In this document: piece by piece, positions 3,740-62,631 of the stretch | How the letters are laid out: every line of letters starts with the position of its first letter | How positions within the stretch are numbered: position 1 is the first letter of the stretch | Source of the DNA: Allacma fusca | Lineage: Eukaryota > Arthropoda > Collembola > Symphypleona > Sminthuridae | DNA: 64,000 bases | Assembly: GCA_947179485.1 (NCBI GenBank) | Contig: OX359245.1 | Span: 73,643,067-73,707,066, forward strand | Direction of reading: 5' to 3' | The notes under the pieces: model-generated | Database searches by the model: none | Told to the model about the DNA's origin: nothing | The model's input: only the letters and a program-made list of their open reading frames with translations | Position numbers and translations under genes: made by a program

Positions 3740-3849
3740 GATGAAGGTGAGAAGAGAGACTGAAGTTTTGTGCCCACGGAGCGTATGTGGAAATCAGTAT
3801 GTGTGTGTAAATTGTAGAGTGTAAACTTGAAAGTGTAATTAATAGCTGT

Positions 3850-13821: not shown

Positions 13822-15117
13822 CTAATTAGCTAAACCCTTGAGATTATAGCCACTAAGAATATTATTCAACACGGACTGGAATATAGCTAAACTATTTACG
13901 GATCCAAAAGGAACTCGTGTAGGTCGCAACTTCCTCTTACTTGTTACAAATGCTAACGCATCTCTACTGTCCTCGTGGAGAACTATCTGCTTAAATGCGT
14001 CAGGTGCATCAACCTTTGAAAACCAACAAGAACCTGCGAAACTATCAAGAACGGTATGCAAGTTTGGTACCGGAAAAGTAAACGGAATAATTTTCTTATT
14101 CACCAGCCTATAATCTATAACTGGTCGTTGCTTTTCACCTCGAATAACTAACAAACAAGGAGATGAATAAGGTCCATCACACTCTTCTGCCCATCCGAAC
14201 TTTACCTTTCTATTAAACAGTTCATCTAAAATCCTTTCAGCTTCAGGTGAATGCCTAAAAGGATTACAGGATACAGGAATATCGTCTTTCAAATTAAATT
14301 TAGCTTTGATAGGATTTCCTTGTTTATCTACAATACATGAGATATCCTCATCAAAGAAAGCAAAAACATCTCTATTTTTCTCTAAGATAGAAATTAAGTT
14401 TGACTTCTGATTGGCGGACATAGTTGGTCCAAAATTAAATTCAGCTAATTCATCTGGAGTGAATTGATTATTTTCATTCTTATTAAGCTCAGACTCAATC
14501 GTCTCATCATTGCTTATCGCTATATTTGATAGAGAAATTACTCTATCATTACTCAGACAAAATTCAAAAGTGGAGAAATTCTCACGAGGTGTAAGTAAGA
14601 TTGGGCAATCGTTAGAGTTTATGACCCATATATAAGCTTTTCCACCAGTGGAAGTAGTTACGCATGATACCGTTAAAATGCCATGACTATGCATTAGTTC
14701 CTCATTCCTATGGATAATTATATCGCCATTAAACTTGTTAGGTAAATGCACGACTATTTTATGGAAAGAACAAGGATTTATACGGAAAGGTCGTTTTATG
14801 CTAACTACATTAGTCTTAGCTTTGGCTAATTTCGGGAAAACGTCAGGAATAGGAGCCGTATCTTTGAACTTACTATAAAATTCTTCATCTTTCTCATCAG
14901 CTTCAAAAAAATTTAAATTACGTAGTGAATCTTCACTAAAACTGTGGGAACTTGCTCTTTCGAAATGCAGCTTTGTCTTTTCAATCTCAATTTTCGTTGG
15001 ACTTACTTTGGCTAATTCGCCTTTAATAGCCTTCTTGGCCTTTGCATTTTTAGAAGCAATCTTGCCCACTTTGATATTAATGAATTAATTATCTTCATCA
15101 GGGTGAGACATAAAATA
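13822..15117 (-). pseudogene. pol: Second Ty3 element pol: reverse transcriptase N-terminal part
   Basis: An open frame of about 415 codons (13822-15069) encodes a linker and most of the RT palm and fingers: RPVIDYRLVNKKIIPFTFP, the first catalytic Asp in FSKVDAPDAFKQI, and VPFGSVNSLAIFQ. It ends at a TAG (13822-13824) placed exactly where the Tyr of the YxDD box is expected; the next codons read VDD in the same frame. Another in-frame TAA lies upstream at 15085-15087. The upstream end of this piece is the BEL insertion site (target duplication CACCC at 15118-15122). Confidence 0.85.
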
Positions 15118-15122
15118 CACCC

Positions 15123-15602
15123 TGAACCGTCTCAAATTGACGATACGAATAAAGTTTGTGTCAGCTTTTCCCAACCAGTTGCTGGGGAAAGTATTTGCGA
15201 AGGACCAGCACTCCCTTTAAGTGCACGTGATTACTTTCCCTGGTATTTCCAACTCTTTTAGTTCCTTTCACAATTGATAGCCTTTGCTATCTAGTGTGAA
15301 TGACAGTGAAAGAATTTTGTATTAGAAACGTAGCCAAAATCAGGCAAGACTTTAATAACAATAAAGCACGTCTAACTCATTCACACCAAAGTTATGTAAT
15401 AATCCTTTTCTCTCATTTCCTATTAACAATATACAATTTCACTCTAACATTCATCTTGTTTCGAGTCTCCAATCAATTTCTCTGTCTAGAACTATACATA
15501 CAATCAATATCAACAATTATTTATATTATAAATAATAATCCATGGTAACAAACAGTCGTAACTACAAAGACTACATTTAGTGTTCGGCTTCAATCTCCAA
15601 CA
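15123..15602 (-). repeat. 3' LTR of BEL/Pao element
   Basis: Starts TGAACCGTCTC and ends CTCCAACA on the plus strand. The last codons of the pol frame (stop at 15590-15592) overlap its first 13 bases in element orientation. Confidence 0.93.
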
Positions 15603-18600: not shown

Positions 18601-19105
18601 GTTTTCCCGGCTTCTGAGGATTATAGGTAGCAAAGTGTGGGAGGTAGTATGTACGTGGTCCCTTCATGCGTGCCTCTTCTGGAGTGAGTTTCCTACAATA
18701 CCCTTTCTTCAAATAATCTTCAACCTTAGAACAGTACTCGCCAGCAAATTTTGTATCGCGATCCATCTTTCGCTCCATACAGTGCAGTCGTCTAATAGCA
18801 GTTGTTCTACTTTCTGGTAGCTTCAAATCTGTAGATCTCCACAGAAGACCTGTCTGGAATCTTGTTCCAACTCTTTTGGTGGTTGATTCCAGAATTTGCA
18901 AAGCTTTGTCATCCTCTACTGACCTACTTTTCTGGTGAACAATTTTTACGCCAAATGTTTCTGTTGAGAACGACTCTTTGATTATTTTCATCAACTCTGA
19001 CTCCTCCGAAGGATTTGTACACATTTGTACAAATTCACGATCTACTCTTCTAGGCGACGGAAGATTCCCGTGAACGACCCATCCGAGCCATGTCTTAGTT
19101 GCCAC
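15590..19105 (-). CDS. pol: BEL/Pao Pol: reverse transcriptase, RNase H, integrase
   Basis: About 1171 codons, the second half of the BEL polyprotein. It lies in the same frame as the gag-protease part and is separated from it by a single TGA (19115-19117), so the ATG at 19105 is probably not a true start. Visible in order: RT with LVFDAACKSFGVSLND and the active box YVDDFTHGADD; RNase H with HIFSDASEKAFA; integrase zinc site (HLHKESRHQGI ... CVMCKVRR); integrase core with GIDYFGPL, LWSDNGTNFHGA and MGGIWERMVRSVK; and a C-terminal DUF5641-like domain (GRIVNVYPGKDGQVRV). These are the standard BEL/Pao domains. The frame has no internal stop. It reverse-transcribes the element RNA and inserts the cDNA. 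Confidence 0.9.
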   Translation of the reverse strand: MATKTWLGWVVHGNLPSPRRVDREFVQMCTNPSEESELMKIIKESFSTETFGVKIVHQKSRSVEDDKALQILESTTKRVGTRFQTGLLWRSTDLKLPESRTTAIRRLHCMERKMDRDTKFAGEYCSKVEDYLKKGYCRKLTPEEARMKGPRTYYLPHFATYNPQKPGKLRLVFDAACKSFGVSLNDCLFTGPDLLNPLPAVLWRFRRYKVGIAGDIREMFHQVQIIPEDQDSQRFLWRGKERKAEPDEYVMQVMIFGAACSPSSAIYVTQKNADEFEREFPGDTTDIKRNTYVDDFTHGADDERTALEKLQNCVEVFKRGGFVMCNWACSSKEVIEKVPVELRAKNWVDLSANEVLPTERVLGLQWDPEKDEFFFQLKFPKVNADVLSLKKVPTKAEVSSLVMSPYDPCGFLTHFIIKGRMLIQEMWLKKLDWKQEISGELLEKWRQWVTELKQITEVRVPRCYAPGVGLKEAKLSLHIFSDASEKAFATVTYLRIERTGEVSVAFVAARARVAPLKALSIPRLELQAAVMGSRLAKSIQDEIDLPIESTIFWSDSRTVLCWLRDDSRKYMQFIAHRVGEILETTEPSQWKWVPTRDNPADEATRNNDETKFHPNCRWYQGPEFLKLPETQWPSERSFVFEDVPIDTLEMKKEYVNLVCMVPGKVSVIDATRFSSWLRLIRATAWMLRFVRFARRSNDRSPGELTGEEILRAQVFWWKIVQQDYFGKEVEALSKKQVLARDSRLMTLTPMLDSDGVIRMQGRTERAKELQLGTTFPVILHPEHHYTKLLIAHLHKESRHQGIETVISNLRMYYWVLQARSAVKRSFSECVMCKVRRARPCPPIQGALPIERLTRQQRPFANTGIDYFGPLMVTANRKTLKRYGVIFTCLSIRAIHLEIAPDLSTDSAINAIRRFISRRGSPDVLWSDNGTNFHGADRELRKSIQDIDTESILKTFAGNGLTWKFNPPSSPHMGGIWERMVRSVKTALHSTLRETTLREDVLHTILCEVEFIVNNRPLTYVSVDPIDPECLTPNHFLMCGKVLGNVPGVFSNDDLCRRSQWKIVQRYADMIWTRWVKEYLPTLTKRTKWFQPVNPIKVGDVVVIADKDGPRNSWPLGRIVNVYPGKDGQVRVIDVKTKDGVYRRPANKICVLDICNGDENTSPSSEGRNVGD
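15603..15614 (-). promoter_or_regulatory. Polypurine tract of BEL/Pao element
   Basis: The minus strand reads AGAGGGAAGAAA immediately before the 3' LTR. It lies within the last codons of pol. Confidence 0.65.
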
Positions 19106-19114
19106 TGGGTCAAT

Positions 19115-21037
19115 TCAATGTCCCTGGCGAAGTCTTCGTGGCGTTGTGAGTAGGATGTTGTCGGAACCAATTAATATCTTGGGCTGAGCATTATTCATGG
19201 AGGAGAAGGGAATGTCATTTAAATATGGCCATAATTTTTTAATTACCTCCATATCCACGGACAGAGTAAGGAGGGACATTTTTTCAACTGTCATCGCATT
19301 TTCTAACCGATATTTCTTGGCACCTTCACCTACTCCTGCAATTTCCAGTGAAACCCGTTTTGATGTAGGGTCTTCTTTCGTTATACCGTTTGTCCACTGA
19401 ATGAAAAGCCCCTCTTCAGGTCCATCCAACTTCAATTTCATTGCTATTTCGGAGTCAATCATAGTGACAGTTGATCCCTCGTCCAATAGAGCGTATGTGG
19501 AGACAATACCATTTGGACCAAGAAGATTGACAGGCAAAATGCGTAAGAGAACTTCTTTAATTACCTTCTTACCATCCACGTGCCCACAAACATTTTTCTT
19601 TACTTCTACTGCAGCAGGAGCTTTGTGAAGTAACTTGTGGTGTTGACGCTCACAACCATCGACTCCACAGACTTCTTTATTTTTGCAATCTGTGCCTTTA
19701 TGACCCTTAGACAAACAGCAATAGCAAAGGTTCTGACTTTTGACAGTCTTCCAACGATTTTGACAGACTGCTTCACTGAAATCCTTACAATCAGTTATTC
19801 CATGTCCCTCTTTTGAGCAATGGTAGCAACCTCTATCAATTTTAGTCATCGTAGACATAACGACCTTCTTGTCTTTCTTCTTTGGATCAGACCTTTCTTC
19901 CAGTACTAGATAATTTGAAGGCATCATACCTGCAGTCATTGCCATTCCCTCTAACCAGATCTCCAAATCCTCTAGACTGGGTTCCTGTTCCAACGTCTTG
20001 GCATGACCACACCAATCGAATTGCTGTTGATATGGCAGTTTCATAACCAACTCTTCTAATAGCTGAGGATTGAACATGTGACCCATTCTGTTCATTATCT
20101 TCATAGTTGCTACTAGATTTGTAACGAGATTTGAGAAATGAATTAGTGAATCAGGTTTCTTCGTAACTGGTGATTCGCATGTCTTGACCTTCTGGATCAT
20201 TGATTTAATGATTTGGTCTGGTCTTCCGAAACGATTTTCCAAAGTCTTGATTACCCGTTCAACATTTTGTGGTAATCCTAAAATTGAAATGACAGCCTCT
20301 CTTGCTTTCTCCTTCAGGCATTTTTCCAACCGTGTAACATTTTCGTCGGCAGAAAGTCCACACATTTCCGTAGTTCGACGGTATTGATGGATAAACATGG
20401 GCCACTCTTCAGGATTACCCTTAAAATGAGGCAATTCTTTTGATATGGATTGACGTGATAGAAGTTTATCTAACCTTGCATTCGTTTGGGCCACTTGTAC
20501 CATTACTGCACTGCCAGAACTTGTACCCCCAGGTTCCATTACCCGTTCTGGTTCTCGTTCTGAAAGCCATTTGCTAACATTAGCATCAGTATCCTGGACA
20601 ACCACATCATGCTCCTGTTCGTCCTGTTGTATGAATGAAGCCTCGTCTTCCTCGAAATCCTCTTCTATTACGAGTTTCTCCATTTTCAATCGCTTTTCTT
20701 CGACTTTCTTTTCGATGTGGAACTTCTGCTTGGCTAGTAGAAATTGCGTCTCAGCTTGCCCTAATCTCTGTAAAGATTCAATTTCAGCTTTTAATTTTAA
20801 TCGAGCAACCTCACTCTGGTTACTACAAAAGGACTGGTTGCTCAGACGACCAGACTTTCTTGTCACAACGGATGATGATTCGGAAAACGAAATAAGAGTA
20901 GCTCTTGTTTGGGTTGGACCGTCTTGTTGATTCATAGCTCTCTCTATTGTCGGTGGTCCTAGCAACGGGGTTGCAAATACCTCAGGAGGATTTTTCAACA
21001 AGCGTTGACTTCGTCGAACTCCGCTGTTTTCTTCCAT
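19115..21037 (-). CDS. gag-pro: BEL/Pao Gag-protease
   Basis: A 640-aa frame from the ATG at 21037. The N-terminal half is a DUF1759-like Gag with a charged coiled-coil stretch (about residues 75-130). Two CCHC knuckles follow near residue 400-445 (CYHCSKEGHGITDC and CYCCLSKGHKGTDC). The C-terminal part is a DUF1758-like aspartic protease with LLDEGSTVTMID, where most relatives have DSGS, so the residue after the catalytic Asp is Glu. The frame stops at a TGA (19115-19117); pol resumes at once in the same frame. This could be a nonsense mutation, or stop-codon readthrough to limit Pol; most BEL elements have one uninterrupted frame, so mutation is the simpler reading. Confidence 0.88.
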   Translation of the reverse strand: MEENSGVRRSQRLLKNPPEVFATPLLGPPTIERAMNQQDGPTQTRATLISFSESSSVVTRKSGRLSNQSFCSNQSEVARLKLKAEIESLQRLGQAETQFLLAKQKFHIEKKVEEKRLKMEKLVIEEDFEEDEASFIQQDEQEHDVVVQDTDANVSKWLSEREPERVMEPGGTSSGSAVMVQVAQTNARLDKLLSRQSISKELPHFKGNPEEWPMFIHQYRRTTEMCGLSADENVTRLEKCLKEKAREAVISILGLPQNVERVIKTLENRFGRPDQIIKSMIQKVKTCESPVTKKPDSLIHFSNLVTNLVATMKIMNRMGHMFNPQLLEELVMKLPYQQQFDWCGHAKTLEQEPSLEDLEIWLEGMAMTAGMMPSNYLVLEERSDPKKKDKKVVMSTMTKIDRGCYHCSKEGHGITDCKDFSEAVCQNRWKTVKSQNLCYCCLSKGHKGTDCKNKEVCGVDGCERQHHKLLHKAPAAVEVKKNVCGHVDGKKVIKEVLLRILPVNLLGPNGIVSTYALLDEGSTVTMIDSEIAMKLKLDGPEEGLFIQWTNGITKEDPTSKRVSLEIAGVGEGAKKYRLENAMTVEKMSLLTLSVDMEVIKKLWPYLNDIPFSSMNNAQPKILIGSDNILLTTPRRLRQGH

Positions 21038-21083
21038 TTCTTCGATGAATGAACTTTGACCCTCAGGACTCTTGGTGAAATAG

Positions 21084-21101
21084 ATCCGGTTCGAAGGACC
21101 A
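21084..21101 (-). promoter_or_regulatory. tRNA-type primer-binding site of BEL/Pao element
   Basis: Two bases inside the 5' LTR the minus strand reads TGGTCCTTCGAACCGGAT. The complement ends in CCA and carries GGTTCGAA, a canonical tRNA T-arm. The exact tRNA was not assigned. Confidence 0.8.
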
Positions 21102-21103
21102 AA

Positions 21104-21583
21104 TGAACCGTCTCAAATTGACGATACGAATAAAGTTTGTGTCAGCTTTTCCCAACCAGTTGCTGGGGAAAGTATTTGCGAAGGACCAGCACTCCCTTTA
21201 AGTGCACGTGATTACTTTCCCTGGTATTTCCAACTCTTTTAGTTCCTTTCACAATTGATAGCCTTTGCTATCTAGTGTGAATGACAGTGAAAGAATTTTG
21301 TATTAGAAACGTAGCCAAAATCAGGCAAGACTTTAATAACAATAAAGCACGTCTAACTCATTCACACCAAAGTTATGTAATAATCCTTTTCTCTCATTTC
21401 CTATTAACAATATACAATTTCACTCTAACATTCATCTTGTTTCAAGTCTCCAATCAATTTCTCTGTCTAGAACTATACATACAATCAATATCAACAATTA
21501 TTTATATTATAAATAATAATCCGTGGTAACAAACAGTCGTAACTACAAAGACTACATTTAGTGTTCGGCTTCAATCTCCAACA
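21104..21583 (-). repeat. 5' LTR of BEL/Pao element
   Basis: 480 bp, same termini as 15123-15602 and nearly identical to it. It should contain the element promoter; no clear TATA box stood out. Confidence 0.93.
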
Positions 21584-45747: not shown

Positions 45748-46488
45748 TCATGCGCCTTCAATTTCATTTATAAAGCGTCCGTAAGAAATAATACGACCTA
45801 CTTGATGAATAATATAGTAAATAAATTGTGGCCTCTTCGTTAGATTATTTTCATACACAAAATTGAAATGCAATTTCCAAGAAATGAATTCGTTTGGATC
45901 GGTAAAGGTGATTGGGAATAAGCTAACCCAATTTTTAACCAATGATTTACTTGTTGGGAATACATTAAAGGGCTTATTTGCTAGGCCCCCAATTTGTAAT
46001 GGAATCACGTAACATAGAACATCACCACCTCGCCGGGAGGGGTTTTGATAAAAATCTGCTTCTTCTGTGTAATTGTTTATTCTAAACTGAGCAAGACCAA
46101 ATTTTAGTATAGTGCCATTGAGGGATTCGATTCGATTTTTGGGTCCTAAGCGGTAAGAAACCGCTGTGCCAAAATTCGACAGTAAAGATGATTTGGAATT
46201 AGAATTTCCAATTACAGAAAACTCAACCAAGTCTGGGACGTAGATTCTTGCTTGACGATTTTTAATCGGATGACATACTAAATTGTCGCTCATGGTTGCG
46301 TCCGCGAATTCGTCCAAGAGACAAGGTCCAACGGATAACACTTGTTTCAAATTGATGTTTAATTTTTGATTACTATTTTCTCTTCCCGGATAAATCGCTA
46401 ACGACAAACCAGTGCAATGCGATTCGCTGAAAAGTCTGATGAATTTCCCAAACGTTGCTGCTGACTTAATTTTTTTGATTTTCAACAT
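45748..46488 (-). CDS. Polinton left-end protein, possible inactive NUC-type endonuclease fold
   Basis: Intact 246-aa frame with ATG at 46488, transcribed away from integrase. The N-terminal half is not recognised. The C-terminal half (about residues 150-245) follows the layout of bacterial-type DNA/RNA non-specific endonucleases: RRGGDVLCYVIPLQIGG, then NKPFNVFPTSKSLVKNW, then a beta-rich tail with KRPQFIYYIIHQ and GRFIN. In active enzymes the first block holds a D-x-GH or GGHL catalytic motif; here the His position reads Cys (VLCY), so if the relation is right the enzyme is probably inactive. This is a pattern judgement and not a firm family call. The alternative is an unrelated capsid or accessory protein. 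Confidence 0.5.
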   Translation of the reverse strand: MLKIKKIKSAATFGKFIRLFSESHCTGLSLAIYPGRENSNQKLNINLKQVLSVGPCLLDEFADATMSDNLVCHPIKNRQARIYVPDLVEFSVIGNSNSKSSLLSNFGTAVSYRLGPKNRIESLNGTILKFGLAQFRINNYTEEADFYQNPSRRGGDVLCYVIPLQIGGLANKPFNVFPTSKSLVKNWVSLFPITFTDPNEFISWKLHFNFVYENNLTKRPQFIYYIIHQVGRIISYGRFINEIEGA

Positions 46489-47495
46489 TTTAGAACATCC
46501 AATCTCTGATTCGTATTTGAATATGCCGGAATGATAATCTTCAAAATTGCCTGAAATTCACCAAACCGTTTTGGGATGTGCGCAAAACAATATTCTTCAA
46601 TTTTAAAGATAAGCATGAGTCAGTTGTTTGAGCGAAGTTTGGAATTATTTTTATTCATTGAATGAATTCAGAATTTCGTAATTCAAATTCGTCTTTTAAA
46701 CGTTTCAACGACCTTGACAGCCGACCTTGACAGCCGACCTTGACAGCCGACCTTGACAGTCGGCTTAACTTTAAATTAAAGATTTAAAGGACAACAAAGC
46801 AATTTTGGGGAGGAAAATTAGCCTGTCGTTTGTCCCATTACATATATAATTTCTGAAGTTTAAAACCCGCAAATTTCAAAAACAAGTATGAGAGGTAAAA
46901 GGGGTTCATGTCCAGCGAGACGACATACTTGATTATTATTTTCTGCAAAAGCATTTACTAAACGCATTTAAAAGGGGAACTAGAACCTCGAGGTTTTCGA
47001 AAAATTTTTTCGTAATTTCATGAATAACTCCTGTCCTTTCATTGTCCCTGTCCCAAAAATTTTAAACTCGCTGTTTTACTGAATTTTCCTGTTAACATGT
47101 GACTTTTACGGGGGCTATCTATTACGAGTTCCCTGGTTTTTGACATACCTGTTATTTTCGCCATCGAATAACCGCGCCATCGGGTTCTTAAGCATTTCTG
47201 CAAAACAAATTTCCGTAGGACTGAATTGGCAGTTATCAGTAGTCCCCTATAATGGTGTAAACGATCCCGAAAGAGCCCTCAGGACATTTCGGGTATCGAT
47301 TGCCCGGAGATACCCGAATATGTTCTTTAAGTGGGGGGAAATGTATGAACTTTCCTTCTCAGTTATACTTTACGCATGGCACATACATTGGTATCACCTT
47401 TCCAACGCAGCTCAGTTCATATTTGTAATAATATATTCATAAATTCAAGAATTCACAATAATTAGTTCATTTCAAATACAAAAAACAAAGAAAAA
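46489..47495. other. Divergent intergenic region of the Polinton
   Basis: Lies between the leftward end gene and the rightward integrase, so it probably holds promoters for both. It contains the short tandem repeat at 46716-46768. A 100-codon frame at 47140-47442 has no recognisable feature. Confidence 0.5.
46716..46768. repeat. Short tandem repeat, four units of about 14 bp
   Basis: Units of GACCTTGACAGCC-type sequence (ACCTTGACAGCCG) repeat four times in the divergent promoter region. Confidence 0.85.
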
Positions 47496-48561
47496 ATGTC
47501 AATTCGAGACAGTTTATTGAATCAAAGATTGACTGGATCATTTTCGGGTATCGGTAGATTTATTAAGGAGCGAAAAGAGTGGAAATATAAGCGAGAAATT
47601 GAAAAGGAATTGTTAAAATTAAATTCGTATGCACTGCATCGTCCAGTGCGTAATAAATTTAAAAGACGAAAAATAATGACAAGCTTCATTAATCAAACTT
47701 GGTCGGCGGATTTGAAGGATATTGACAATATTGCTCCGTGGAATAATTGTAATACTTTTATACTTGTTGTAATTGATAATTTCAGCAAAAAGGCGTACGC
47801 AAGAATGATTAAATCAAAAGATAGCGAATCAATGATTAAAGCTTTTGATTCAATTTTTAAAGAGGCAGACCAGACGCCCATGTTTCTTTTTACCGATCGG
47901 GGTAAAGAGTTTACAGCAAAGCGTGTGCGCGATTTTTTAAAAGATAACGGTATTAAACCCTACCACGTATATAGTCATATAAAAGCTGCTATTGTTGAAC
48001 GTTTTATTCGTACTCTGTTTACCAAATTGCAACGCTACATGACAGAACACGATTCGCCGCGTTTATATAAAGTTCTTCAAGAATTTATTGACACTTATAA
48101 CAACACGTATCATTCCACGTTGGGTCATGCTCCGAACGCAGTCAATATTCGCGATCAGTATGACATCTGGTCTCGCATGTACAGTAAATACTTGAAGGAA
48201 AAGGAAAATTCTACACAAAAACCACTAAAGTTCAAAATCAACGACTTGGTCCGAATTTCCCGCGCAAAACTTCTATTCGAAAAAGGTTAGTAAACAATTA
48301 CCTTTCAAATACATTTTAATCAACAATTTTGATAACAATTAACATTCAACGGTTAATCAATTACTTCATTTTATAGGGTACTCTGAGTCGTGGTCTCGAG
48401 AAATTTTTCGAATTGTCAAGGTTCAAGACACAATACCATATACATATTTGCTGGAAGATACATCGGACCCTCCGGAAGATATAACTGGTCAGTTTTACGA
48501 CAACGAGTTGGAGCTGGCGCGAATATTTGAGCCGGAAAACAACACTAAAAGCAACGAATAA
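47496..48561 (+). CDS. Polinton retroviral-type integrase, two exons
   Basis: Exon 1 is 47496-48285 and exon 2 is 48377-48561; the intron (48286-48376) starts GTTAGT and ends TTTTATAG, and splicing keeps frame to give about 324 aa. The catalytic core has the DDE triad: Asp in SADLKDI, Asp in FTDRGKEF and Glu in IVERFIRT. The basic N-terminal segment and a chromo/SH3-like C-terminal tail (about KFKINDLVRIS onward, continuing into exon 2) are usual for Polinton integrases. It inserts the element DNA, normally with 6-bp target duplications. The stop is 18 bp before the next ATG. Without splicing the protein would end at a TAG in the donor site. Confidence 0.9.
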
Positions 48562-48579
48562 GTGTATCCCGAAATCATA

Positions 48580-50181
48580 ATGTCGATACACAACGAATTT
48601 AAGTTGCATAACGGTCGAAATGAGCCGAATGTTTTGCGAAACTTCTATACTATTCTGTCAAACAAAGCAAATCCAAATGGTGTAGGACTTGTGGGGAACA
48701 TTGTAAATTCATTATCGAATCCTGTGAATTTGGAGAGGGGAATGTATGATGTTGGACTCAGGAGGTTGCGGTACTTGCCTCATGCGCAAACAAAAGTTGT
48801 TCGAAAAACCAGGACTGTACAGAAAATTCTACGACCTAGAATCACTCGAAGAATGATCAGTGCAGATAAGGAAATTCCACAAGGTCCATTATTTCCACAC
48901 TATGAACCTCCAGCAAAGTTCACATTAAAGTACCAAAACACAGATAAACGCTTTGCAGAATTTATAAGTAGAATTAATAAATCTTTGGAAGCTAGTAAAA
49001 TCAAAGTTAGCTTTAATTTACGCCCGCTAGAAGGGAACAGATTTCTCGTAACAGTAAACCAATTGCTTGACGATCCGGAAGATGTGCTGGAGATATCGGA
49101 AAATTTGGCAACCCTGATTGGACTCAAACGTAAATTCTTCCTAGTTGGAAGTTACACAGCTGAAGACATTACATCCGAAGATATTTACAAAAAACTTGCA
49201 GCTAAAACCGAATTTCAAATATCAACAGTTAAAAACAATTACAAAGCGAATATAATAACAGTGGATCAACAATTTCAAAGTCTTGCAGTATTTTATAAAC
49301 ACAGTGAAACGAATTTTAAAAACGTTTTTCGAAACCTGACTATCAGACTCCTGGAGTCTAGTTTTAATGTGGATTTCAACTTTGATAGTCAAAACAAATG
49401 TCGAATATTTGTTGGAACTCCTGATGGTCGCAAAACGGATTATATAACGCTTCCTCAATCAATTGTTGCTTGTTTGGGTTTTAATCACGACAAATTTTTT
49501 CTTGGACAAGAGGAATCTATTGCCGCGTTTAATGAAAACGAATTTCGGAAAATTACTGCCGAGGATCCGCTTTTCTTTAAACTGGGATATTCAAATAAAC
49601 TCTTTATTGCAATGAAAGAACCGACCAGCATGGGCGTAAAGGATGTTTTGCAAGCGTTAAATAATACATTCATTAACGAAAAATTTCCTGAATTTGATAT
49701 AAAATTTCAATATGGAAATGGTGACATGTTTGTCAACGACGTTCCCAAAAATTTTGCCGTAGAATTGCCAATTCCTGTGAAGAGATACTTTGAAATACCA
49801 TTAGATGCAATGTTTAAAAATGGGACGCGCATACCCGTCGGTCATGACGTTGTTGTGCAGGAGGAAATTATTAGAGAAATTGAAGAAGGCGAGGACGAAA
49901 TCATTCCTGTTGAATCAAAATCTAAGCGGTTGCTTGTACTACTAAATTGTGTGGAGAATCAATTTTATAAAAATCACTCTGCTCCAGTACTAGCAGAAAT
50001 TGCCATGTCTACTGATCAAAATACAGAAGTTGAAATAGAATTCAATCCAGTGTCATTTATTCCTGTTAACAGTCAACAACTGCAAATTTTACGTGTTGAT
50101 TTTGTCGACGAATATTTTCAACCTTGGGATTTAAGTAACGCAGAAACAAGTGTTCTGTTGCATTTTAAGCCTAGATTTTAA
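48580..50181 (+). CDS. Polinton penton-like minor capsid protein (PY-type)
   Basis: 533 aa from the ATG at 48580 (MSIHNEFKLHNGR). Position between integrase and major capsid gene, size and the C-terminal pattern (QQLQILRVDFVDEYFQPW ... SVLLHFKPRF) match the Polinton minor capsid protein PY, which folds as a single jelly roll and occupies capsid vertices. Two internal blocks appear related: NLATLIGLKRKFFLVGSY near residues 175-192 and SIVACLGFNHDKFFLGQEES near 300-319, suggesting a duplicated domain. The frame is intact and uninterrupted. Confidence 0.8.
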   Translation: MSIHNEFKLHNGRNEPNVLRNFYTILSNKANPNGVGLVGNIVNSLSNPVNLERGMYDVGLRRLRYLPHAQTKVVRKTRTVQKILRPRITRRMISADKEIPQGPLFPHYEPPAKFTLKYQNTDKRFAEFISRINKSLEASKIKVSFNLRPLEGNRFLVTVNQLLDDPEDVLEISENLATLIGLKRKFFLVGSYTAEDITSEDIYKKLAAKTEFQISTVKNNYKANIITVDQQFQSLAVFYKHSETNFKNVFRNLTIRLLESSFNVDFNFDSQNKCRIFVGTPDGRKTDYITLPQSIVACLGFNHDKFFLGQEESIAAFNENEFRKITAEDPLFFKLGYSNKLFIAMKEPTSMGVKDVLQALNNTFINEKFPEFDIKFQYGNGDMFVNDVPKNFAVELPIPVKRYFEIPLDAMFKNGTRIPVGHDVVVQEEIIREIEEGEDEIIPVESKSKRLLVLLNCVENQFYKNHSAPVLAEIAMSTDQNTEVEIEFNPVSFIPVNSQQLQILRVDFVDEYFQPWDLSNAETSVLLHFKPRF

Positions 50182-50201: not shown

Positions 50202-50582
50202 ATGCGTCAAGTTGAGTGTAACGATCAAGTTTGCTTCCTTGAACCTAAGACCCCTCACGTGAAAATTGGGAACGAATCTAAAGAGAGCGACATGACTGGC
50301 GGAGGAAGTGCTGGATTGAGCGTCGAAGGTTCATCGTATCTTATTCCACTTAAATCTGGCAACGGACGTAAATCAATTCATAAAAGGAAACAACCTCAGT
50401 CGCAGTCAGGTGGTGGTCGAAGAAGGAAGCGTAGCGCAACTACAGCTGGTAGAAAACGTTCAGTACTTAAGAAGAAAAGAAGGGGATCCACACACGGAAA
50501 GCGAGGTCAGTTAAGAACCATTCAAGTTGGTTCAGGAAAACGAAGATCGAAAATAGCAAAGCGAAAGTGTGTTCGAAGATAA
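50202..50582 (+). CDS. Small highly basic protein, candidate DNA-condensing core protein
   Basis: 126 aa. The last 72 residues contain about 30 Lys/Arg, in clusters such as GGGRRRKRS and KKKRRGS. The N-terminal 30 residues are neutral to acidic. Between them lies M31-T32-G33-G34-G35, which fits the adenovirus protease consensus (M/I/L)-x-G-G|x. The gene lies between the minor and major capsid genes, 16 bp before the latter. By analogy with adenovirus pVII and pX, it may be a packaged, protease-processed core protein. The analogy rests on charge, motif and position only; no sequence relation is claimed. Confidence 0.65.
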   Translation: MRQVECNDQVCFLEPKTPHVKIGNESKESDMTGGGSAGLSVEGSSYLIPLKSGNGRKSIHKRKQPQSQSGGGRRRKRSATTAGRKRSVLKKKRRGSTHGKRGQLRTIQVGSGKRRSKIAKRKCVRR

Positions 50583-50598
50583 ACAGAAAAGGGCGAAG

Positions 50599-52104
50599 AT
50601 GGACGCCAATAATATTTTCCAGGAACGTCCGACAGTGTTTGAAGGATCTACGCAGTCCTTACGTTCCGAATTAAATTTGTTTTCATTACCACCAACAGAT
50701 GTCAGCATTCAACAAAGGTCTGAGTATATGCCCTGCTTTCCTCTTGTTTCAACGAAAGAATCTTATAACCCAATTGAGTTTTACCTAATGTCTGACGCAT
50801 CGGGCTATATTGATCCTTCCGATAGTTTTTTAATGTTAACATGCAGAGTGTTACGTGTTGATGGCAAAAACTGCGACGAAACAGACATTGTATGTCCAAG
50901 TTCAAACTTTTTTCATTCAATGTTTAGTAACTTGGAAGTTTATTTGAACGGTGTCCTAATTTCCGATTCAAACAATCACTACTCAACAGTTTCGTATTTG
51001 CAACGTTTACTTTCAGCGAGCGAATTAGATAAATCTAATCGATTAAAGGACGAGTTTTGGTATCCAAATACCAAAAAAGGTGCATTTGCCCTAACTGACG
51101 ACGGATTTAAACTTCGATACGAAAAAGCCAAAAATTCTCAGCAATTTACTCTTTTAGGACGATTGAATTGCAATATTTTCAATCAGTTACGCTACCTCCC
51201 TCCTTCAAGTGAACTTCGCATTGTATTGCGAAGGTCACCACCAGAGCTATGTTTAAACTCAAGCGTTTCAAAACTCCCCGGAATTTCGGGACCTCCATAC
51301 CGGTTTGACATAAATGAAGCTGTATTTTACGTATCCAAAAAAATTGTGTCGCAACAAGTTGTTGATATTCATCGGCGTGAACTAAGTCTGGGTAAAACAT
51401 GCAAATACCCCATTGTAAATGCAGACCTGCGAATGTTTTCAATTGCCCAAGGATTGTCTCAAATTACAACCGAAGGAATTTTACTAGGCAGAATACCACA
51501 AATAATTGTGTGTGGGATAATATCTGCAGATGCGTTTATGGGCGACATTACAAAAGATCCGTTTAATTTCGTTGACAAAAATCTATCAGAGATTTCCTTC
51601 CAATGGAATGGCGAGACGATACAACACAGGACTATTCCTCTTAGTTTTACAACCGCCAACGGGGCTGGACAAGATAATTTCTTGCTAGCCTTGCGATCAC
51701 TACGAAGCACAGCTGGCTCGGAACTTTTAGGCAATGGTATAAGCAGAGATAACTTCAAGGAAGGTAGGCATTACTCATATTTAGTTATTCTAAACAATAT
51801 ACTTATTTATTTTGTTTATTCAAATTCAGGTTTTTGCAGGCTTTCGCCCATGAACTGAATACTAAACAATATGTACTATCATTCTAAAATTTAATCTTTG
51901 ATTGTCATTTTAGGTAATGTTTTGGTGGCGCTACATCTATTACCAAACCAAGGTGACGCATTGTCAGTCAATCGAAGAGGCAGCATTAAGATTAATTTAC
52001 GATTCAAGACACCATTGGACGAACCTGTTCAAGTTGTTGTGTATAGCCATTATCAGAATGTAATGGAAATTGATCAGAATAGACAAGTTATTTTAGACTA
52101 TTGA
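50599..52104 (+). CDS. Polinton major capsid protein (double jelly roll), two exons
   Basis: Exon 1 is 50599-51763, exon 2 is 51914-52104; the intron starts GTAGGC and ends CATTTTAG. Splicing gives 451 aa. Start is the first ATG of the frame after the basic-protein gene. Motifs typical of Polinton hexon-like proteins include LNLFSLPPTDVSI near the N-terminus, FHSMFSNLEVYLNGVLI near residue 100, RYLPPSSELRIVLRR near 205, and the C-terminal LRFKTPLDEPVQVVVYSHYQ. It builds the trimers of the capsid shell. The intron falls inside the second jelly roll, so splicing is required for a complete capsid protein. Confidence 0.88.
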
Positions 52105-52109
52105 ACAGC

Positions 52110-52577
52110 ATGAACACAGAAGATGTAAAACGCGTTTTAAGATACATTTTTAGATTACGAAATATTAAAATCCCATTTCATGTTATGGCTGCTGATGAAT
52201 TCAACAATTTTCATGCTTTTGCAACATGTCCAACAATATTTATTGTAAATACGGATGTAAGAAAATCACCTGGTAAACACTGGGTATGTATTTATAAAAT
52301 AGGCACTCAACATTATGAGTTTTTTGATAGTTTTGGAATATGTATCAAGTGTTATAAAAATATAAACCTCCCAATGAAGTTTATCAAAAAAGAAAATTGT
52401 AGACAGCTCCAAAGTTATACTTCGCTTCTATGCGGGGGTTATTGTATTTTATTTATTTATAATCGTATTTTAGGATTATCATTTGAAAATTCTATTTATC
52501 GTTTTAGATCTAGTTTTAGGTACAATGAATCACTTGTTTGGAACTTTATAAAACGATTTGGGAATAGAAACATCTAA
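52110..52577 (+). CDS. Adenain-type cysteine protease (capsid maturation)
   Basis: 155 aa from the ATG at 52110, six bases after the capsid stop. Catalytic residues of the adenovirus protease/ULP1 fold are visible: His57 in GKHWVCIY, Asp73 in YEFFDSFG, Gln101, and Cys108 in LLCGGYCILF. Length is close to other Polinton proteases (about 150-220 aa, short end). It should cleave precursor proteins in the capsid at (M/I/L)xGG-type sites. Confidence 0.88.
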   Translation: MNTEDVKRVLRYIFRLRNIKIPFHVMAADEFNNFHAFATCPTIFIVNTDVRKSPGKHWVCIYKIGTQHYEFFDSFGICIKCYKNINLPMKFIKKENCRQLQSYTSLLCGGYCILFIYNRILGLSFENSIYRFRSSFRYNESLVWNFIKRFGNRNI

Positions 52578-52710: not shown

Positions 52711-53379
52711 ATGGAACTTAACTTAAAGGAAGACAATTTAATTAATTGTAAAATCCCTCATCCATCAACAATATCTATAGTAGGTATAACAATGGGAGGG
52801 AAAACGCATACCACCATGGAAATTGTTCGACGTCGTAACGAAGTTTTCGAAACTCCGCTCGAAAGAGTTATTTGGGTGTATAGCGACTTTCAAAAGGATT
52901 TATATAAACTAAAAGAAGAAGATAAAAACATTAAATTTACAAACAACTTGCAAGATATCGAGCAGCTATCAAAAGGACCTTGTTTAATTGTGATTGACGA
53001 CCAACAGGATACATTTTCAAAACGAGAAAATTTGGATCTTGTTACAAAATATTTTATTAAACACAGTCACCATCGAGGTGCTAGCATTATTCTAATTCTG
53101 CAAAATCCTTTTGTAAAAGGACTTCGTGATGTCAATCTGAATACTCAGATTTTAATTTTATTTGATAACCCCGGTGACAAAAGCATAATTACAAATATCG
53201 CTAAACAAATTTGTCCTGGCCAAACTTCATTTTTAACCTCAGCATACAGTAAAGCCGTAACGGGTAAGCAATACGGTTATCTTTACATGGATATGCATCC
53301 AAAAAACAAACAATATCCGTATTGGGTACGTAATTCAGTTTTCTCTATAGATAATATGGAAGTTTACACGCCCGAATAA
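52711..53379 (+). CDS. Packaging ATPase, FtsK/HerA (A32-like) family
   Basis: 222 aa. Walker A is GITMGGKT near residues 25-32; Walker B is CLIVIDDQQD near 91-100; ILILQNPFVKG follows as the sensor segment. Polinton ATPases of this type pump DNA into the capsid. ATG at 52711. A 130-bp gap separates it from the protease. The frame is intact. Confidence 0.9.
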   Translation: MELNLKEDNLINCKIPHPSTISIVGITMGGKTHTTMEIVRRRNEVFETPLERVIWVYSDFQKDLYKLKEEDKNIKFTNNLQDIEQLSKGPCLIVIDDQQDTFSKRENLDLVTKYFIKHSHHRGASIILILQNPFVKGLRDVNLNTQILILFDNPGDKSIITNIAKQICPGQTSFLTSAYSKAVTGKQYGYLYMDMHPKNKQYPYWVRNSVFSIDNMEVYTPE

Positions 53380-54930: not shown

Positions 54931-57900
54931 ATGGAGGAGCAAGAGCATACACTAGAACCTACAGAAGAACAAAATTCTGAAAGCGTGCCACCAGCAGCAT
55001 CTTCATCATTGAATAGTCGAACTGTTCAGACTGAGATTACTGTTTATCCCAGACCTATCACATCAGGATTTGATAACCCGGTAAGTCTTACACTGTCTTT
55101 TAACGTGTCTCGAATATACTATTGATTTGATTTATGGTGGATTGTTTATATTATTCGTTTTATCGAGTTGCTAATTGAGTTTCTGAATCGGTTGCTCATT
55201 CGGTTTCTCAATCGGTTGCTCATTCGGTTGCTCAATCGGTTGCTCAATCGGTTGCTCATTCGGTTGCTCATTCGGTTGCTCAATCGGTTGCTCATTCGGT
55301 TGCTCAAACGGTTGCTCAATCGGTTGCTCATTCGGTTGCTCCATCGGTTGCTCGTAAGTTAATTTCAAAATTTGTTATTCCATTCGTTTCAGGAACACAA
55401 TTAATTTTATGTTACAGATCTTACGCTGTTCCATGCCTGAATGCAGATTTTACTGTCGTACTCATGTTTTGTATGATTCTCATATTGAAAACATTCATCT
55501 GTGCGACCACTGTGGATATTACGTAAATTACAAACACGAGCACCGTTGTCCACATCCTGCAGAGAGACGATGTCATGTAGACGCTGGAATGCTACTTGAT
55601 TTAAGGGATTTCCAGGAAATCAGGTCACATTTGGGTATAATAATTCACTATGGATACCGTCATCCCCTGGAAACAGAGGATCTAGAAACTGTGTTTACTA
55701 TTACTTTTAGTGCAGTCGAAAAGTTGTTTACAGATTTGCTTAACATCCACGGAAATTTGAGGGTTGAAATGACTGTAGGTGTTACAATGGAGAGAGATTT
55801 AGTATTGAATGAAGGGGAAATATCAACAAAAACAGCTTCTATTTATTTTAAATCAAAAAATCACGATTTATATGATAAGACTGGAATCGAAGATTTAGTT
55901 TGGGAATGCGCTACTGAAATATTAGCGCAGAAAGAGAATTTTACGGAGAATGGAAGCAATTGGAGAATTGTGAATGTTGATGCTTTTGAGGTTAAAATTG
56001 GGGAATTGCGACTGTTTCAAAATGCTCGCGTTAAGGGATGGTTGCCTTTACCATTAAATAAAAAGGGTTATCTAAACATACGAAACAACGACAACCAGCG
56101 TTTCAAATATTGTGTCACTGCTGGAATATACTGGAACGATCAAATAAAAGAAAACAAGCGAGAAAAGAAGACGAGCAAAATTCTCCAGAATCCAACCACC
56201 TGGATGAAATACGTAAGCAGAATTGATTTTTCAAGTATACCCGAAGGGTTTGTAAACCCGTACCAAGATATTCCTCCTTTTGAAGTTTGAAACAATGTTT
56301 CAATCAACATTTTTACAAACAGAGGTGAGAATATCATTATGATGCGAAAAAGTCGACATAAATCCCTCAATATAATCAATATTTTCCTTGTGCAAAAGAA
56401 ATCCCAAAACCCTCCTGAAGACCTATACCATTACATTCTCATTACAAATATTGAAAAATTCTTAAAAGAAAACGGTAAAAAATCTCTCTTTTATTGTAGT
56501 AAATGCTACAGGAAATTTAATACGAAAGGAAAGCAACTCAAACATTCTCAGACATGTTCATTTAATAACCTCACAAGTGAAAATAAATCAATGGAAGGTA
56601 GAAAATACGAATTCCCGGAAGAAAATCAAACTTTAAAATTCCAACGACTGGAAATGCTCCACCCCCTACCCATACTTTGCAACTTTTGACTTCGAGTGTT
56701 TTAGCAGACCATTGGAAGAAGTTGAAAAACAGGGATCACGAAACACTTTAAAGCGTTGCGAATATGTTCCTTGTAGTTACTCAATGGCTGTGTTTCAAAA
56801 TATTGATAATCGAGCTGAGTTACTAGCCTTGGAATACTACGACAAAGAAAATGTAGTAGCCCATTTTTTCAAGACAGCGTTTAATTGGGCTCAGAAAATA
56901 TTATTCCAAGTACGTTCAACGAATAACATGGTTATTCCTACAGCAGATGAATTAAAGAAGCATGAAGAGACAACACACTGTCATCACTGTAACCTCGAGT
57001 TTACCAAAACCGGCGAATTTACGAGCAGTGAGAACACGGGCATGTGGGAATTGTTTAATGAAGATGGGGAATTACTAGAAGGAAGCTCGGAAGAGGATGA
57101 TATCGAGGATACTTGTACACAACCATTGAGCAAGCGACAAAAGCAAAGCGACCCCGACTTCACCAGAAAAAATGTTATAAAATGCTATAACCATGATCAC
57201 ACTGATGGCAAATATGTATCTACAATTTGTACGATATGTAATTTAAAAATCCGATATTAGTTTGAATTGCCACTTATAGTGCATGGGGGGAGTAATTTTG
57301 ACTATCATCTTTTACTAAAGTATATGGACTCGACCCTTTTTGATTACGAAGATGTAGACGTAATTGCAAAAAGTGGTCAAAAGTATGTACAAATTACCAC
57401 ATCTGCACGAGACATGTACGTACCAAAACTGTATACAAACTATGGAGGTTTTCAAAAAAACCTTGACAAGTTCTCTTGTGGAAATAGGAAAGTTCGGTTG
57501 AGATTTTTAGATTATTGTCAGTTTCAACATGATTCATTAGCTAGACTTATACAGAGGTTGCAGAGAGAAAACTCGCCACATTTTTCACTTTTAACCCAAG
57601 CCGTTGAGCAATACTTAATCCCAAATAATGTTATAAATACGCCAGAGAGTAACATTTCCAAGAGCTTTGCATTAGGACTCTTGCTAGAAAAATTACCTTT
57701 TCCCTACATGTATCTTTCCAACGCACATGTACTAGGAGATGAGGTTGGTATTCCGGAGCGTAAGTACTTCAACAACGATTTACGCCATGAAGTATGTACA
57801 GACGAACAGTGGAATCTAATACAGAAAGTTTGTTCGGTATTCAAGGTTAACAGTTTTAGAAAATACACAGAATTGTATTGCTCGCTAGATGCTATTCATT

Positions 57901-59496
57901 TAGGAATTATTTGGACCAATTTCGTCGTGAACGGAATTAATACGTATGGACTAGACCCCACATACTGTTGCACTATTTCATCGTTCTCTTGGCAGTGCTG
58001 GTTATACTCTTCTGGAGAAGAGGTTCATTATATTCGAGACAAGAGTATGTACGACTTAGTTAGAGAAGGTATACGAGGTGGTCAGTCATATGCAACAAGA
58101 AAGATCACAACAGCAAACAGTCCTAGAAATGTCAATTATTATGATATCAAGAAACCTTCAAGTACTTTAATATACTTTGACGTTGTTAGCTTGTACAGCC
58201 ATGCCATGCAGACATATAAATTTCCACATTCGGATTATAAATGGGAGAGTGTCCAAGAGCTGGAAAGCATTGACTGGTTGGATAAAAAGTTACTCGACAA
58301 AGAAAATTGTAAAGGGTATATACTAAAACTAGACTTGGAGTATCCAAAAGAGATTCACGATGCTACCATTTCTCTCCCTCTCTGCCCTGAGAAGCGGTGT
58401 GTACATTCAGAATGGCTATCAAAGAGGCAAAGGGAGAACCTTGCCAAGCTTGGGAACGCGAGTGTGCGTTCGTTCCTGGATTCCCCCAAGCTTCTACTTC
58501 ACTGTTACACTCGTTTCAAGTATGTAGTTCACTACAGAGCTCTTGCTTACTATTTGTCCAAAGGAATGAAACTTCAAAAAATACATTGTGGGTTTTCGTT
58601 CACTGAACGCGCTTATCTCCGAAAGTTTATTCAGGAGAATATAAAAAAACGTAAAATAGCTAAAACTGAGTCCGAAAGATCTGATCAGAAATTGATTTGC
58701 AATGGAACGTACGGTCGAACTTTAATGAATAATGAAAACTTTTTGCGAGTTAAGTTTTGCAAATCTGGAGCTAGGGCACGTCAATATTTGGCTTCACCTG
58801 AATGCATGGATTTTGATGTTTTGAATGAATTTGTGAGCATTATAAAGCTCAAACCAAGAAAGGTTATCTTAAACAACCCCATACAATGTGGTATGAGTGT
58901 ACTAGATTTAGCTAAATGTATATTTTACACGGGGTATTATGATAAATTGTGCAAAATATTTCAGGATCGTATCTCTGTCATATATTCGGACACAGACAGT
59001 GTGCAGTGCGAAATAATTGGTGAGGAAAAATTGATTTGGAGCGAGTTAGTGCAGTCTAAAGATTATTTTGACTTTTCAAAATTTCCTGAAAATCACGAAA
59101 TATTTAAGCTGCAGACATATTCCCGATTTGAGAATGAGACAGGCAAACGAGTCCGGAACGTGGAAGATTGAGAATTTAGATATACGAGAGATTGTATCTT
59201 TAAAGAGTAAACAGTACAGCTTGCTATTATACAACCATTCTATGGAAATGAAAAACAAGGGAGTTCCTTCTTATACATTGAAACATTTTTGTAACCATGA
59301 TACATATAAAGATGTAGTTGAAAAAGGTAAAGCCAAATCTTTGGATATTAACTTAATACGTTCTCTCAATCACACGCTATATAATTTAACGGTGGGGAGG
59401 CTTTCGTTCCATAACTTGGATTTGTACAGAAGCTACCCTGATGAAAATAATTACAATTACTCGCTCCCGTATGGTCACTATAAGTTAAACCATTGA
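54931..59496 (+). pseudogene. polB: Protein-primed DNA polymerase B, broken in at least four places
   Basis: Exon 1 is 54931-55080 and exon 2 starts at 55418, after an intron with GTAAGT and TTACAG ends that contains a 12-bp minisatellite. Exon 2 begins with zinc-binding clusters (CSMPECRFYC, CDHCGYY). The exonuclease motif FDFE lies near 56690-56700. Polymerase motifs are DVVSLYS (usual DxxSLYP, so Pro is replaced), KLICNGTYGR and YSDTDS. Breaks: TGA at 56288-56290 in frame, a frameshift between about 56640 and 56685, TAG at 57258-57260 in frame, and a frameshift between about 59130 and 59165 before the C-terminal stretch ending at 59496. The gene would replicate the element from terminal protein; as read here it cannot give full-length enzyme. 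Confidence 0.88.
55187..55352. repeat. 12-bp minisatellite inside a polymerase intron
   Basis: About 14 units of TCGGTTGCTCAA/T. The unit is a multiple of three, so all frames stay open on both strands; the minus strand would read repeats of NEQPIEQP. It lies wholly within the intron 55081-55417, which argues against coding. Confidence 0.92.
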
Positions 59497-59584: not shown

Positions 59585-61254
59585 TCATTCAAAAACCTTG
59601 CATTCTAAAGCTAGAAGTCGCTTCTCCTCGTACTTTTGAAGTGTAGTCGGACCGTTAAGTTTTGCTTTAGACAGGAACCTATCGGGTGAAATACATTCAT
59701 CAAGTACAGCTACTGACGATGGATCCTTGCATCTGCTCCACATGACGTAGTCAAGACCTACACAAAATTGAACAGTGTCTAGGTATATAGCGACACGATC
59801 CAGATTTCTTCCCTGGGATCGATGTCCAGTGAGGGCATACCCCAAATCCAAACAAAACCTTTTCCCTGAAATATATTTTCCTGTAAGCTCATCAAACTGG
59901 GAATCCCACTGACGAAATATTGGAACCCCTCTTCCTTTGGGCGTGATCACGTAATGGTTACCGGTGTAGTTAAGGAATTCCACCAGAATAAACCGCACAA
60001 CTTTTCCCTCGGTAATAGATAAATCAAACTCCCCTTCGTCGCTACTTTGAGACTCAAAGATAACATCGCGAACAAAACCAGCACATCCATTATTTAATCC
60101 AGCAGCTACGCACAAATTTTTTTGTAGGATAACAGGACAGCCTATGGCTAATTCGAGAATTTGAAGTCCGTTGTCAATAGAAAAGATAGCCTTGCTATCA
60201 TTGTCGGCATGAAGCTTGTCCCTAAAAGGCAAACATAATACATTTAAATGAAATCAATAACATACAATTCTCACATCTCTCTGTGTGTTTCATGAAAGTA
60301 CCTGTTATGCTGATACACTTGCTTCCGAAGAGGATATATGTGTAGAGCGTTGTGAAATAATTTCTGATCTTCCTTAGACAGATTTAGAAGCTGCCGAGAG
60401 CGTATGAATTTCAAGTCATGTTCAATACATTCCTTTCTTTTAAGTCTCCCTAGAAAATTACGGAAGCTCTTCTGCTCCTCACTCTCCCCCACTTGACGAA
60501 ATTGTTTATCCATTACAACAACCTTTTCAAAGGACTTGTACATTTTATACACATGCTTCAGTTGAGGATTGCGTGACTTTGACGAAGGATAAAATATGGG
60601 ACAATCGGCAACGGGAAACGTTTGATACAAATCTCCTATTAATATAACAGTCTTTCCGCCAAAATATTTATCCGCATTAATCGGATCAACCTTTCGCAAG
60701 ATACTATCTATTTCCTTTAGCATATTTTGCCCAATTAACGAAACTTCGTCAATACAAATTAAGGTCACATTTTTCAATCTTTCCTTTTGTTTTTCTAAAA
60801 GAGATGTTTCTGAACTACTACTGCGTTGGTCTTGAATGTTGCAGTCACTTCCCTCGACCGGATTTTCCAGTGCTTTGAAACAGGGTAATAGAAACGCAGA
60901 ATGCAAGGTTGTACCACGAACCAGAAAGCTAGCACTACCCGTTAAACAGGCTAATACGTAGTCAAAATCTGGTGAAATTAGCTTTTGTGTGTCAAATGCA
61001 AACTTTAAATGGGAAATTAATGTACTTTTGCCCATTCCAGCCTCCCCTACAACAATTAAACGAATTTGAGACTTGATTTGCTCTTCTCGAGACATTTTAA
61101 TATGTCCTCGAATCAAATTGATAACATATTTCTGTTTTTCACTCAAACTTTCAAAGGGAACTTTTGGTTCAATTGGCTGTGTTGGTGTTTGTGACCAAAT
61201 ATTTATCCATTTGGTAAAAACTCTCTCGTTTACTTGATCAGGTTGGAATTCCAT
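59585..61254 (-). CDS. PIF1-like superfamily 1 helicase, two exons
   Basis: Exon 1 is 61254-60302 and exon 2 is 60221-59585; the 80-bp intron begins GTACTT and ends CCTTTTAG. Spliced product is 529 aa. Motifs: I GEAGMGKST near residue 71, II CIDEVSLIG near 175, III GDLYQTFPV near 212, IV-like MDKQFRQVG near 256, then in exon 2 GCPVILQKN, GYALTGHRSQGRNLDRV (motif V) and MWSRCKDP (motif VI). It is a 5'-3' DNA helicase by family. It is convergent with polymerase B, with 88 bp between stops. The frame is intact. Most animal Polintons are not known for such a helicase. It could have been captured from a host PIF1 or Helitron, or be an insertion next to the element; its tight packing between Polinton genes favours membership. 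Confidence 0.8.
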
Positions 61255-61553: not shown

Positions 61554-62631
61554 ATGGCAAGCAACCCCAAAGTAAAAGGTGCTGTATTTTGTATTTTTCT
61601 CTGCGTTCTTACATTTATTTACGTAATGTATGCTTCCTCATATTCTAAATTTAATACATTTACATTCGAATTTTACAGTAATTGTAATGTTTTTCATACT
61701 GCAGGTACCAGTCGCATTGTTCGTCCAAAATTAATTAAATTTGATCCGTATTTGAGAGCCGCTAAGAAGTTAGCTTCCCAGGATCTTTGCAGCAATTGGA
61801 GCTTTTTTGAAAATCCGGACTGCATTATGGTAACTTGTTCACATTTTTATAGCAGTGTTATCTTGCATACTCTTGTAAAGTTTGATCTATATTTGATTTT
61901 ATGTTTAAATATTTATTTCTAATAGATTGACGATGATATATCAGGCCGTATAGCTCACAATGCTATTCACCGGGTTGAGTTTTTTTATATTGGTCGACCC
62001 ACAAACCAAGGAAAGCCAACGGTCGTCAAGTTCTCGTTTTACCAGGGAGCAAAAATTGCCAATTTTTTGACTACTATACTTGGACAGTACGCTGAGACCC
62101 GGGAGAAGAAGCTGGCAGAAGGTTTGGAGGATGTTCCACTTATTCCATACCTCCGAGGGAAGGAGGATCGCACTTACTCTGCAAAGGACGAAAACCGCTT
62201 GGATTTTTGGGCTCATCCCGACTTGGACTTGGGTAGTGTTAAAGTCAGTGTCATACTGAACAAAACACTGGGTCAGCCGGAGGTACTTATGAACTCACCA
62301 GTCCCAATTGAAACAAGCAACAAACTCAAAGGTAAAAAATTATGAATCAGTTATACTTCAGTTGTGCTTCATGATAGTAAAATTATGATTCAGTTGTGCT
62401 TCAAGTCCGTAACATCGATAGATATATAATGTAAATACACGATTATTAACTCTAGGATGGCCAGGACCAGTAATTGGATTATCCCTTGCTGCATGTGTAA
62501 ATCTGGAGGCTTTCATCATGGAAAAAAGGAAGGACAACATTGATTTTTACATCCCAGTTCGTTCCAAAACAAACAGTGGAAATGAGGGAGAGGATGGAAA
62601 ACTGGCGGGAGGAGATGGGAGTCAAGAGTAG
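61554..62631 (+). CDS. Four-exon Polinton gene, 243-aa protein of unknown function
   Basis: Exons 61554-61578, 61705-61829, 61926-62331 and 62456-62631. All three introns have GT/AG ends (GTGCTG...CTGCAG, GTAACT...TAATAG, GTAAAA...CTCTAG), and the total of 732 bases is one continuous frame. The protein is mixed alpha/beta in composition, with no membrane segment once spliced. The first intron, if read through, would add a false hydrophobic stretch. I do not recognise the family. Near the C-terminus L-A-G-G-D fits the adenain cleavage consensus, which would remove about six residues. A poly(A) signal AATAAA follows at 62786-62791. It could be a virion or DNA-binding protein. Confidence 0.65.

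Follow-up and report, generated by a model that had tools for sequence, protein, structure and literature searches.

A separate PIF1-type helicase gene, divergently paired with a predicted single-strand binder, in Polintons of Allacma fusca

Polintons, or Mavericks, which we take here to be the family Eupolintoviridae, typically have AG ends and a 6-bp target duplication; their family B polymerases are protein-primed, and enzymes of this kind replicate linear DNA while displacing one strand. Among the relatives of Polintons, helicases of superfamily 1 (SF1) occur in Tetrahymena Tlr1, Polinton-like viruses, transpovirons and OmPLV of the dinoflagellate Oxyrrhis, described, in the available excerpts of the reports, as fusions with the polymerase (PMC11071308, PMC12721341). 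A 2024 analysis, as excerpted, proposes that in this virus phylum gaining a helicase goes along with losing the polymerase exonuclease, the one seeming to compensate for the other (PMC11071308). Here we consider 64,000 nucleotides of the collembolan Allacma fusca (contig OX359245.1, positions 73,643,067 to 73,707,066; hereafter, the window), where an SF1 helicase gene lies inside a Polinton, and we regard it as likely that this helicase is a resident, long-conserved component of the A. fusca Polintons, divergently paired with a single-strand binder of the PUR/whirly fold and serving replication by polymerase B.

The Allacma element shares with described Polintons a protein-primed polymerase B, an integrase, AG...CT repeats and a duplication of 6 bp and, by weaker evidence, putative protease, ATPase and capsid genes; it differs in that a PIF1-type helicase is present as a gene of its own, along with a single-strand binder predicted to have the PUR fold, and the literature searched yielded no other animal Polinton with this combination. 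The initial annotation held that the canonical gene set lacks PIF1, which stands for animal Polintons as far as searched, whereas SF1 helicases are on record, in excerpts of the sources, for Polinton-like viruses and Tlr1 (PMC11071308, PMC4642659, PMC12721341). The Tlr1-like helicase of Tetrahymena Tlr1, Polinton-like viruses and transpovirons is likewise an SF1 helicase in a Polinton relative, but there it is fused to an exonuclease-less polymerase (PMC11071308, as excerpted), whereas here helicase and polymerase B are separate genes on opposite strands, without fusion to the polymerase palm, and the polymerase retains exonuclease motifs (identified by eye). The OmPLV protein Helicase SF1-pPolB also joins an SF1 helicase with an exonuclease-bearing polymerase B, but as one fused protein of a protist element in which, according to the available part of the report, a retroviral-type integrase was undetected (PMC12721341). 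Like the Oxyrrhis fusion, a separate helicase beside an exonuclease-motif polymerase argues against a simple trade of one activity for the other. The replication genes of Polintons have had a gap that the predicted single-strand binder would close.

The helicase gene and its surroundings

The helicase occupies positions 59585..61254 on the minus strand. Exon 1 (60302..61254) contains motifs I, Ia, II, III and FRQ, with the Walker motif 69 residues downstream of the exon start, and matches the Pfam PIF1 profile at 2.2e-20 in a search whose query carried ten residues of intron read-through. Exon 2 (59585..60221) comprises the 2B domain, motifs V and VI and the stop codon; it matches the Dda-like helicase profile phrog_325 at 1.3e-11 and the Pfam Pif1 2B domain at 3e-4, under the cut-off of the latter profile. 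The 80-bp GT-AG intron (60222..60301) has its GT donor in the same place in 19 of the 22 helicase copies examined, the exceptions being L005, which lacks the GT, and L015 and L016, which are intronless. As worked out from the exon lengths without joining the exons, the coding sequence is in frame and comprises 530 codons including the stop (317 and 212 codons in the exons). The motifs together with the PIF1 profile place the product among PIF1-type SF1 helicases, presumably of superfamily 1B, and family membership suggests unwinding in the 5'-3' direction. Since the exons span 317 + 212 codons and the family recurs at no fewer than 122 places, chance can be excluded.

The two-exon structure and its coordinates thus agree with the initial annotation, as does the arrangement of the neighbours: tail-to-tail with the helicase, polymerase B ends at 59496, leaving a gap of 88 bp, and on the other side a gene that we call gene X starts head-to-head at 61554, approximately 300 bp from the helicase start. 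Gene X (61554..62631, plus strand) is spliced, with exons placed by eye at about 61554-61578, 61705-61829, 61926-62331 and 62456-62631. A fold search with structure models (exon 3, and a homologous frame of greater length) predicts a two-repeat fold of beta-sheet and helix as in the single-strand binding proteins PUR-alpha and Whirly, although the identity to these proteins is only about 11%, and the gene X of copy L009 has no Pfam match. The gene X product is thus predicted to bind single-stranded DNA.

All these genes lie within one Polinton, which spans 47238 to 71462 in window coordinates extended past the right edge. Its left terminal inverted repeat (47238..47323, plus strand, 86 bp) begins with AG and is identical at 86/86 positions to the right repeat, whose end at 71462 lies beyond the window (L029), and the 6-bp target duplication GTTATC (47232..47237) recurs after the right end. 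The element contains both a retroviral-type integrase (47496..48561, plus strand, one intron placed by eye; Pfam rve, 4.7e-14) and a protein-primed polymerase B (54931..59496, plus strand, start codon and intron placed by eye; Pfam DNA_pol_B_2, 2e-18). In this copy the polymerase frame is disrupted by two in-frame stops (56288, 57258) and two frame breaks (near 56.65 and 59.1 kb). The terminal repeats are fully identical despite these four lesions, and the window element was perhaps copied in trans after its polymerase had decayed. A separate transposon around the helicase, which the initial annotation named as a refutation, was considered and rejected: apart from the Polinton's own terminal repeats, which lie well beyond 59.5-61.3 kb, none were found.

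Copies across the genome and a helicase-deleted subfamily

We searched 392.7 Mb in 91 contigs; the published A. fusca assembly, according to the part of the report available, comprises 392.8 Mb with a longest scaffold of 81.9 Mb (PMC10427803). Helicase exon 1 has at least 127 matches, at least 122 places after merging (a lower bound, as scoring covered the best 125 of 430 candidates), and 115 of the 127 matches are stop-free, some of them being partial. For polymerase B we found at least 72 matches at no fewer than 69 places (69 of 787 candidates scored), and at 51 of these 69 a helicase lies tail-to-tail within 4 kb. Sorted by identity to the window helicase, a tail-to-tail polymerase accompanies 8 of 9 helicases at 65% or more, 40 of 47 at 50-64%, 2 of 14 at 38-49% and 1 of 52 at 34-37%; these counts miss some pairs, as L012, L020, L021, L023 and L028 have a polymerase beside the helicase in the fetched DNA and yet are unpaired here. 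The polymerase of L023 is 99.8% identical to a public-database A. fusca polymerase B protein (P0004). Next in score after the polymerase of the window come five places, of which three show open frames of 1360-1373 codons and the other two contain two stops each.

We fetched 27 distinct helicase copies (L001-L028, with L007 and L026 counted once because they are a single place). The polymerase is tail-to-tail with the helicase in 18 of them, an integrase follows the helicase in three (L009, L010, L022), the helicase adjoins the protease, the capsid gene or a 539-codon gene in five (L013-L016, L018), and in L017 gene X is the only neighbour recognised. Gene X stands head-to-head with the helicase in 25 of the 27 copies. 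Thus, the helicase and gene X mostly stay together as a pair, while the position of the pair in the element shifts. Since both genes are retained by many related elements of this genome, the helicase, widespread across diverged Polinton lineages, looks like a regular working part rather than a stray gene; the proposal that it belongs to an animal Polinton is thereby supported, many other copies carrying it, most of those fetched in the same position. The accompanying suggestion that it acts where polymerase B is failing is not supported, as the helicase is also present in copies with an open polymerase B frame.

Pairwise distances between helicases are correlated with those of three other genes of the element: polymerase B (Mantel r 0.974 over 8 loci; 0 of 2000 shuffles), gene X (r 0.902, 16 loci; 0 of 2000) and the capsid gene (r 0.829, 7 loci; 5 of 2000). 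Fifteen pairs of exon 1 were compared; dN/dS is 0.07-0.17 in the six with usable dS, two of these having dS above 1.4 and three sharing members, and three pairs show almost no changes, one of them giving a meaningless ratio of 0.52. In the measurable pairs, purifying selection thus acts on exon 1, and the catalytic motifs are kept in seven diverged copies. The co-divergence, the selection and the shared intron fit an old resident gene.

Eighteen polymerase places lack a tail-to-tail helicase, and for ten of them we fetched the 3' side. Nine (L036, L037 and L039-L045, on C1, C8 and C12) share one deletion junction, whereas in the tenth (L038) the helicase is truncated or interrupted. The deletion removes about 1.57 kb, namely the helicase except for its tail and DNA upstream of it (measured for L036 and L037 against L026). 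In five of the nine a helicase tail of 41-50 codons can still be recognised; over that stretch the remaining four align at the DNA level. All nine retain gene X. Their polymerase frames comprise 1245-1414 codons without a stop in the matched part, and their identity to L036 is 98-99% across some 2.2 kb and 92-99% at the junction. Among the matches listed, the nearest helicase is more than 49 kb away for eight of them, and for the ninth it lies 13 kb off, paired with a neighbouring polymerase. As nine near-identical deleted copies have an open polymerase B, the helicase is not needed in cis: it either acts in trans or is not essential. The multiplication of this subfamily suggests that the helicase can probably be supplied in trans, and the deletion constitutes a natural knock-out that makes cis and trans action testable.

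Origin and probable role of the helicase

In a tree of 67 rows, 17 Polinton helicases form one clade (support 100/99) beside P0015 (98/91) and near P0016-P0020, of which P0016, P0017 and P0019 are presumably of Helitron type, judging by their linker motifs and their grouping in a second tree of 28 rows. In the latter, the Helitron-type rows and the Polinton helicases are split (100/99) from 11 other PIF1-type rows, which include bacterial and unnamed ones and one slime mould PIF1. The same genome contains a decayed Helitron with a PIF1 domain (L051), included as a row, where the helicase lies downstream of a frame matching Pfam Helitron_like_N at 3.4e-15; the piece used from it, of 122 residues, groups with P0018 (89/84). 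In another tree, which included three more usable Allacma rows, L049 falls inside the Polinton clade. The phylogeny proposed in the initial annotation, run with Helitron-type and PIF1-type rows, thus yields a single Polinton clade with Helitron-type helicases as its nearest neighbours, and judging by sequence the two probably share an ancestor; the Polinton stem is long (1.49), so that long-branch effects are possible, and the trees leave the direction of transfer unsettled. Compared with the helicase domain of Helitron RepHel proteins, represented among the nearest rows and joined by L051, the Polinton helicase is unfused and its exons have no Pfam match to a Rep (HUH) domain.

If the helicase serves polymerase B, it would open the duplex, or clear structured or protein-bound DNA, during protein-primed strand-displacement replication; as a 5'-3' enzyme it could work in front of the replication fork or along the strand being displaced, while the gene X protein would coat that strand. 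Read most simply, the divergent pair is a helicase together with a strand-coating protein. More tentatively, and with considerable doubt, the two genes may form a complete, trans-acting fork module of springtail Polintons, a Helitron-related helicase and a PUR-fold binder under one divergent promoter, that moves within the element, the helicase-deleted Polintons being parasites of helicase-bearing ones. Several observations weigh against the replicative role of a resident helicase. Gene X was undetected in two of the 27 fetched copies (L015, L018), and other lineages place the helicase beside the integrase or protease, away from polymerase B. The deleted copies keep polymerase B open and have multiplied, being spread over three chromosomes. 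In addition, dS is saturated in 6 of the 15 exon 1 pairs, the six with usable dS do not count as independent, and two further Allacma helicases (L047, L048) fall just outside the Polinton clade.

The helicase could instead serve integration, recombination, repair or host resolution of the element, as cellular PIF1 acts at stalled forks and telomeres. The three loci where it adjoins the integrase and not polymerase B would agree with this, and exonuclease-bearing polymerase B can presumably displace strands unaided by a helicase, as in adenovirus and phi29-type systems; but the tight co-divergence with polymerase B and the predicted single-strand binder as a partner fit replication as well or better, and we consider such a function unlikely. 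Still less probable is a selfish or accessory passenger without a role in copying that benefits the element within its host, e.g. by inhibiting a DNA-based host defence: the spread of the helicase-deleted subfamily speaks for it, but the deleted lineages may borrow the enzyme from many helicase-bearing siblings, and the retained catalytic motifs and the purifying selection in the usable pairs speak against it. That a single copy acquired the gene by chance, through insertion of a separate transposon (a fragment of a Helitron, for instance) or through capture of a host PIF1, has almost no probability left, even though the closest outside relatives are Helitron-type helicases, as the gene occupies the same place in many copies, has no second termini and lacks a Rep match; an insertion or capture confined to one copy is refuted by the other helicase-bearing copies.

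Other features of the element and the window

Further Polinton genes lie on the plus strand between the integrase and polymerase B. The 539-codon frame (48562..50181) has no family match above the cut-off; 6 of the 20 loci L009-L028 contain a homologue. It is followed by the first coding stretch of a putative major capsid protein (50557..51858), so named from its position, without a Pfam match and with homologues in 7 of these 20 loci. Next come a putative adenovirus-type protease (52110..52577; Peptidase_C5 at 0.0074, under the cut-off, active-site residues identified by eye) and a putative packaging ATPase (52711..53379; no Pfam match, Walker A identified by eye, weak match to phrog_2666 at 0.006). 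Profile matches of the capsid, protease and ATPase genes are weak or absent; the gene order, the motifs seen by eye and the homologues in other copies fit these assignments.

A 12-bp tandem array lies in the intron region of polymerase B (55162-55353), and a similar-looking array is found in the right part of the element (L029, about 915-1300). Outside its repeats the element is flanked by two frames that look alike by eye (45748-46557, minus strand; L029 8634-9200, minus strand), as if it were inserted within a host gene family. Elsewhere in the window, the minus-strand frames 2-3793, 11215-15084 and 15590-21112 read, by eye, like polyproteins of long terminal repeat (LTR) retrotransposons.
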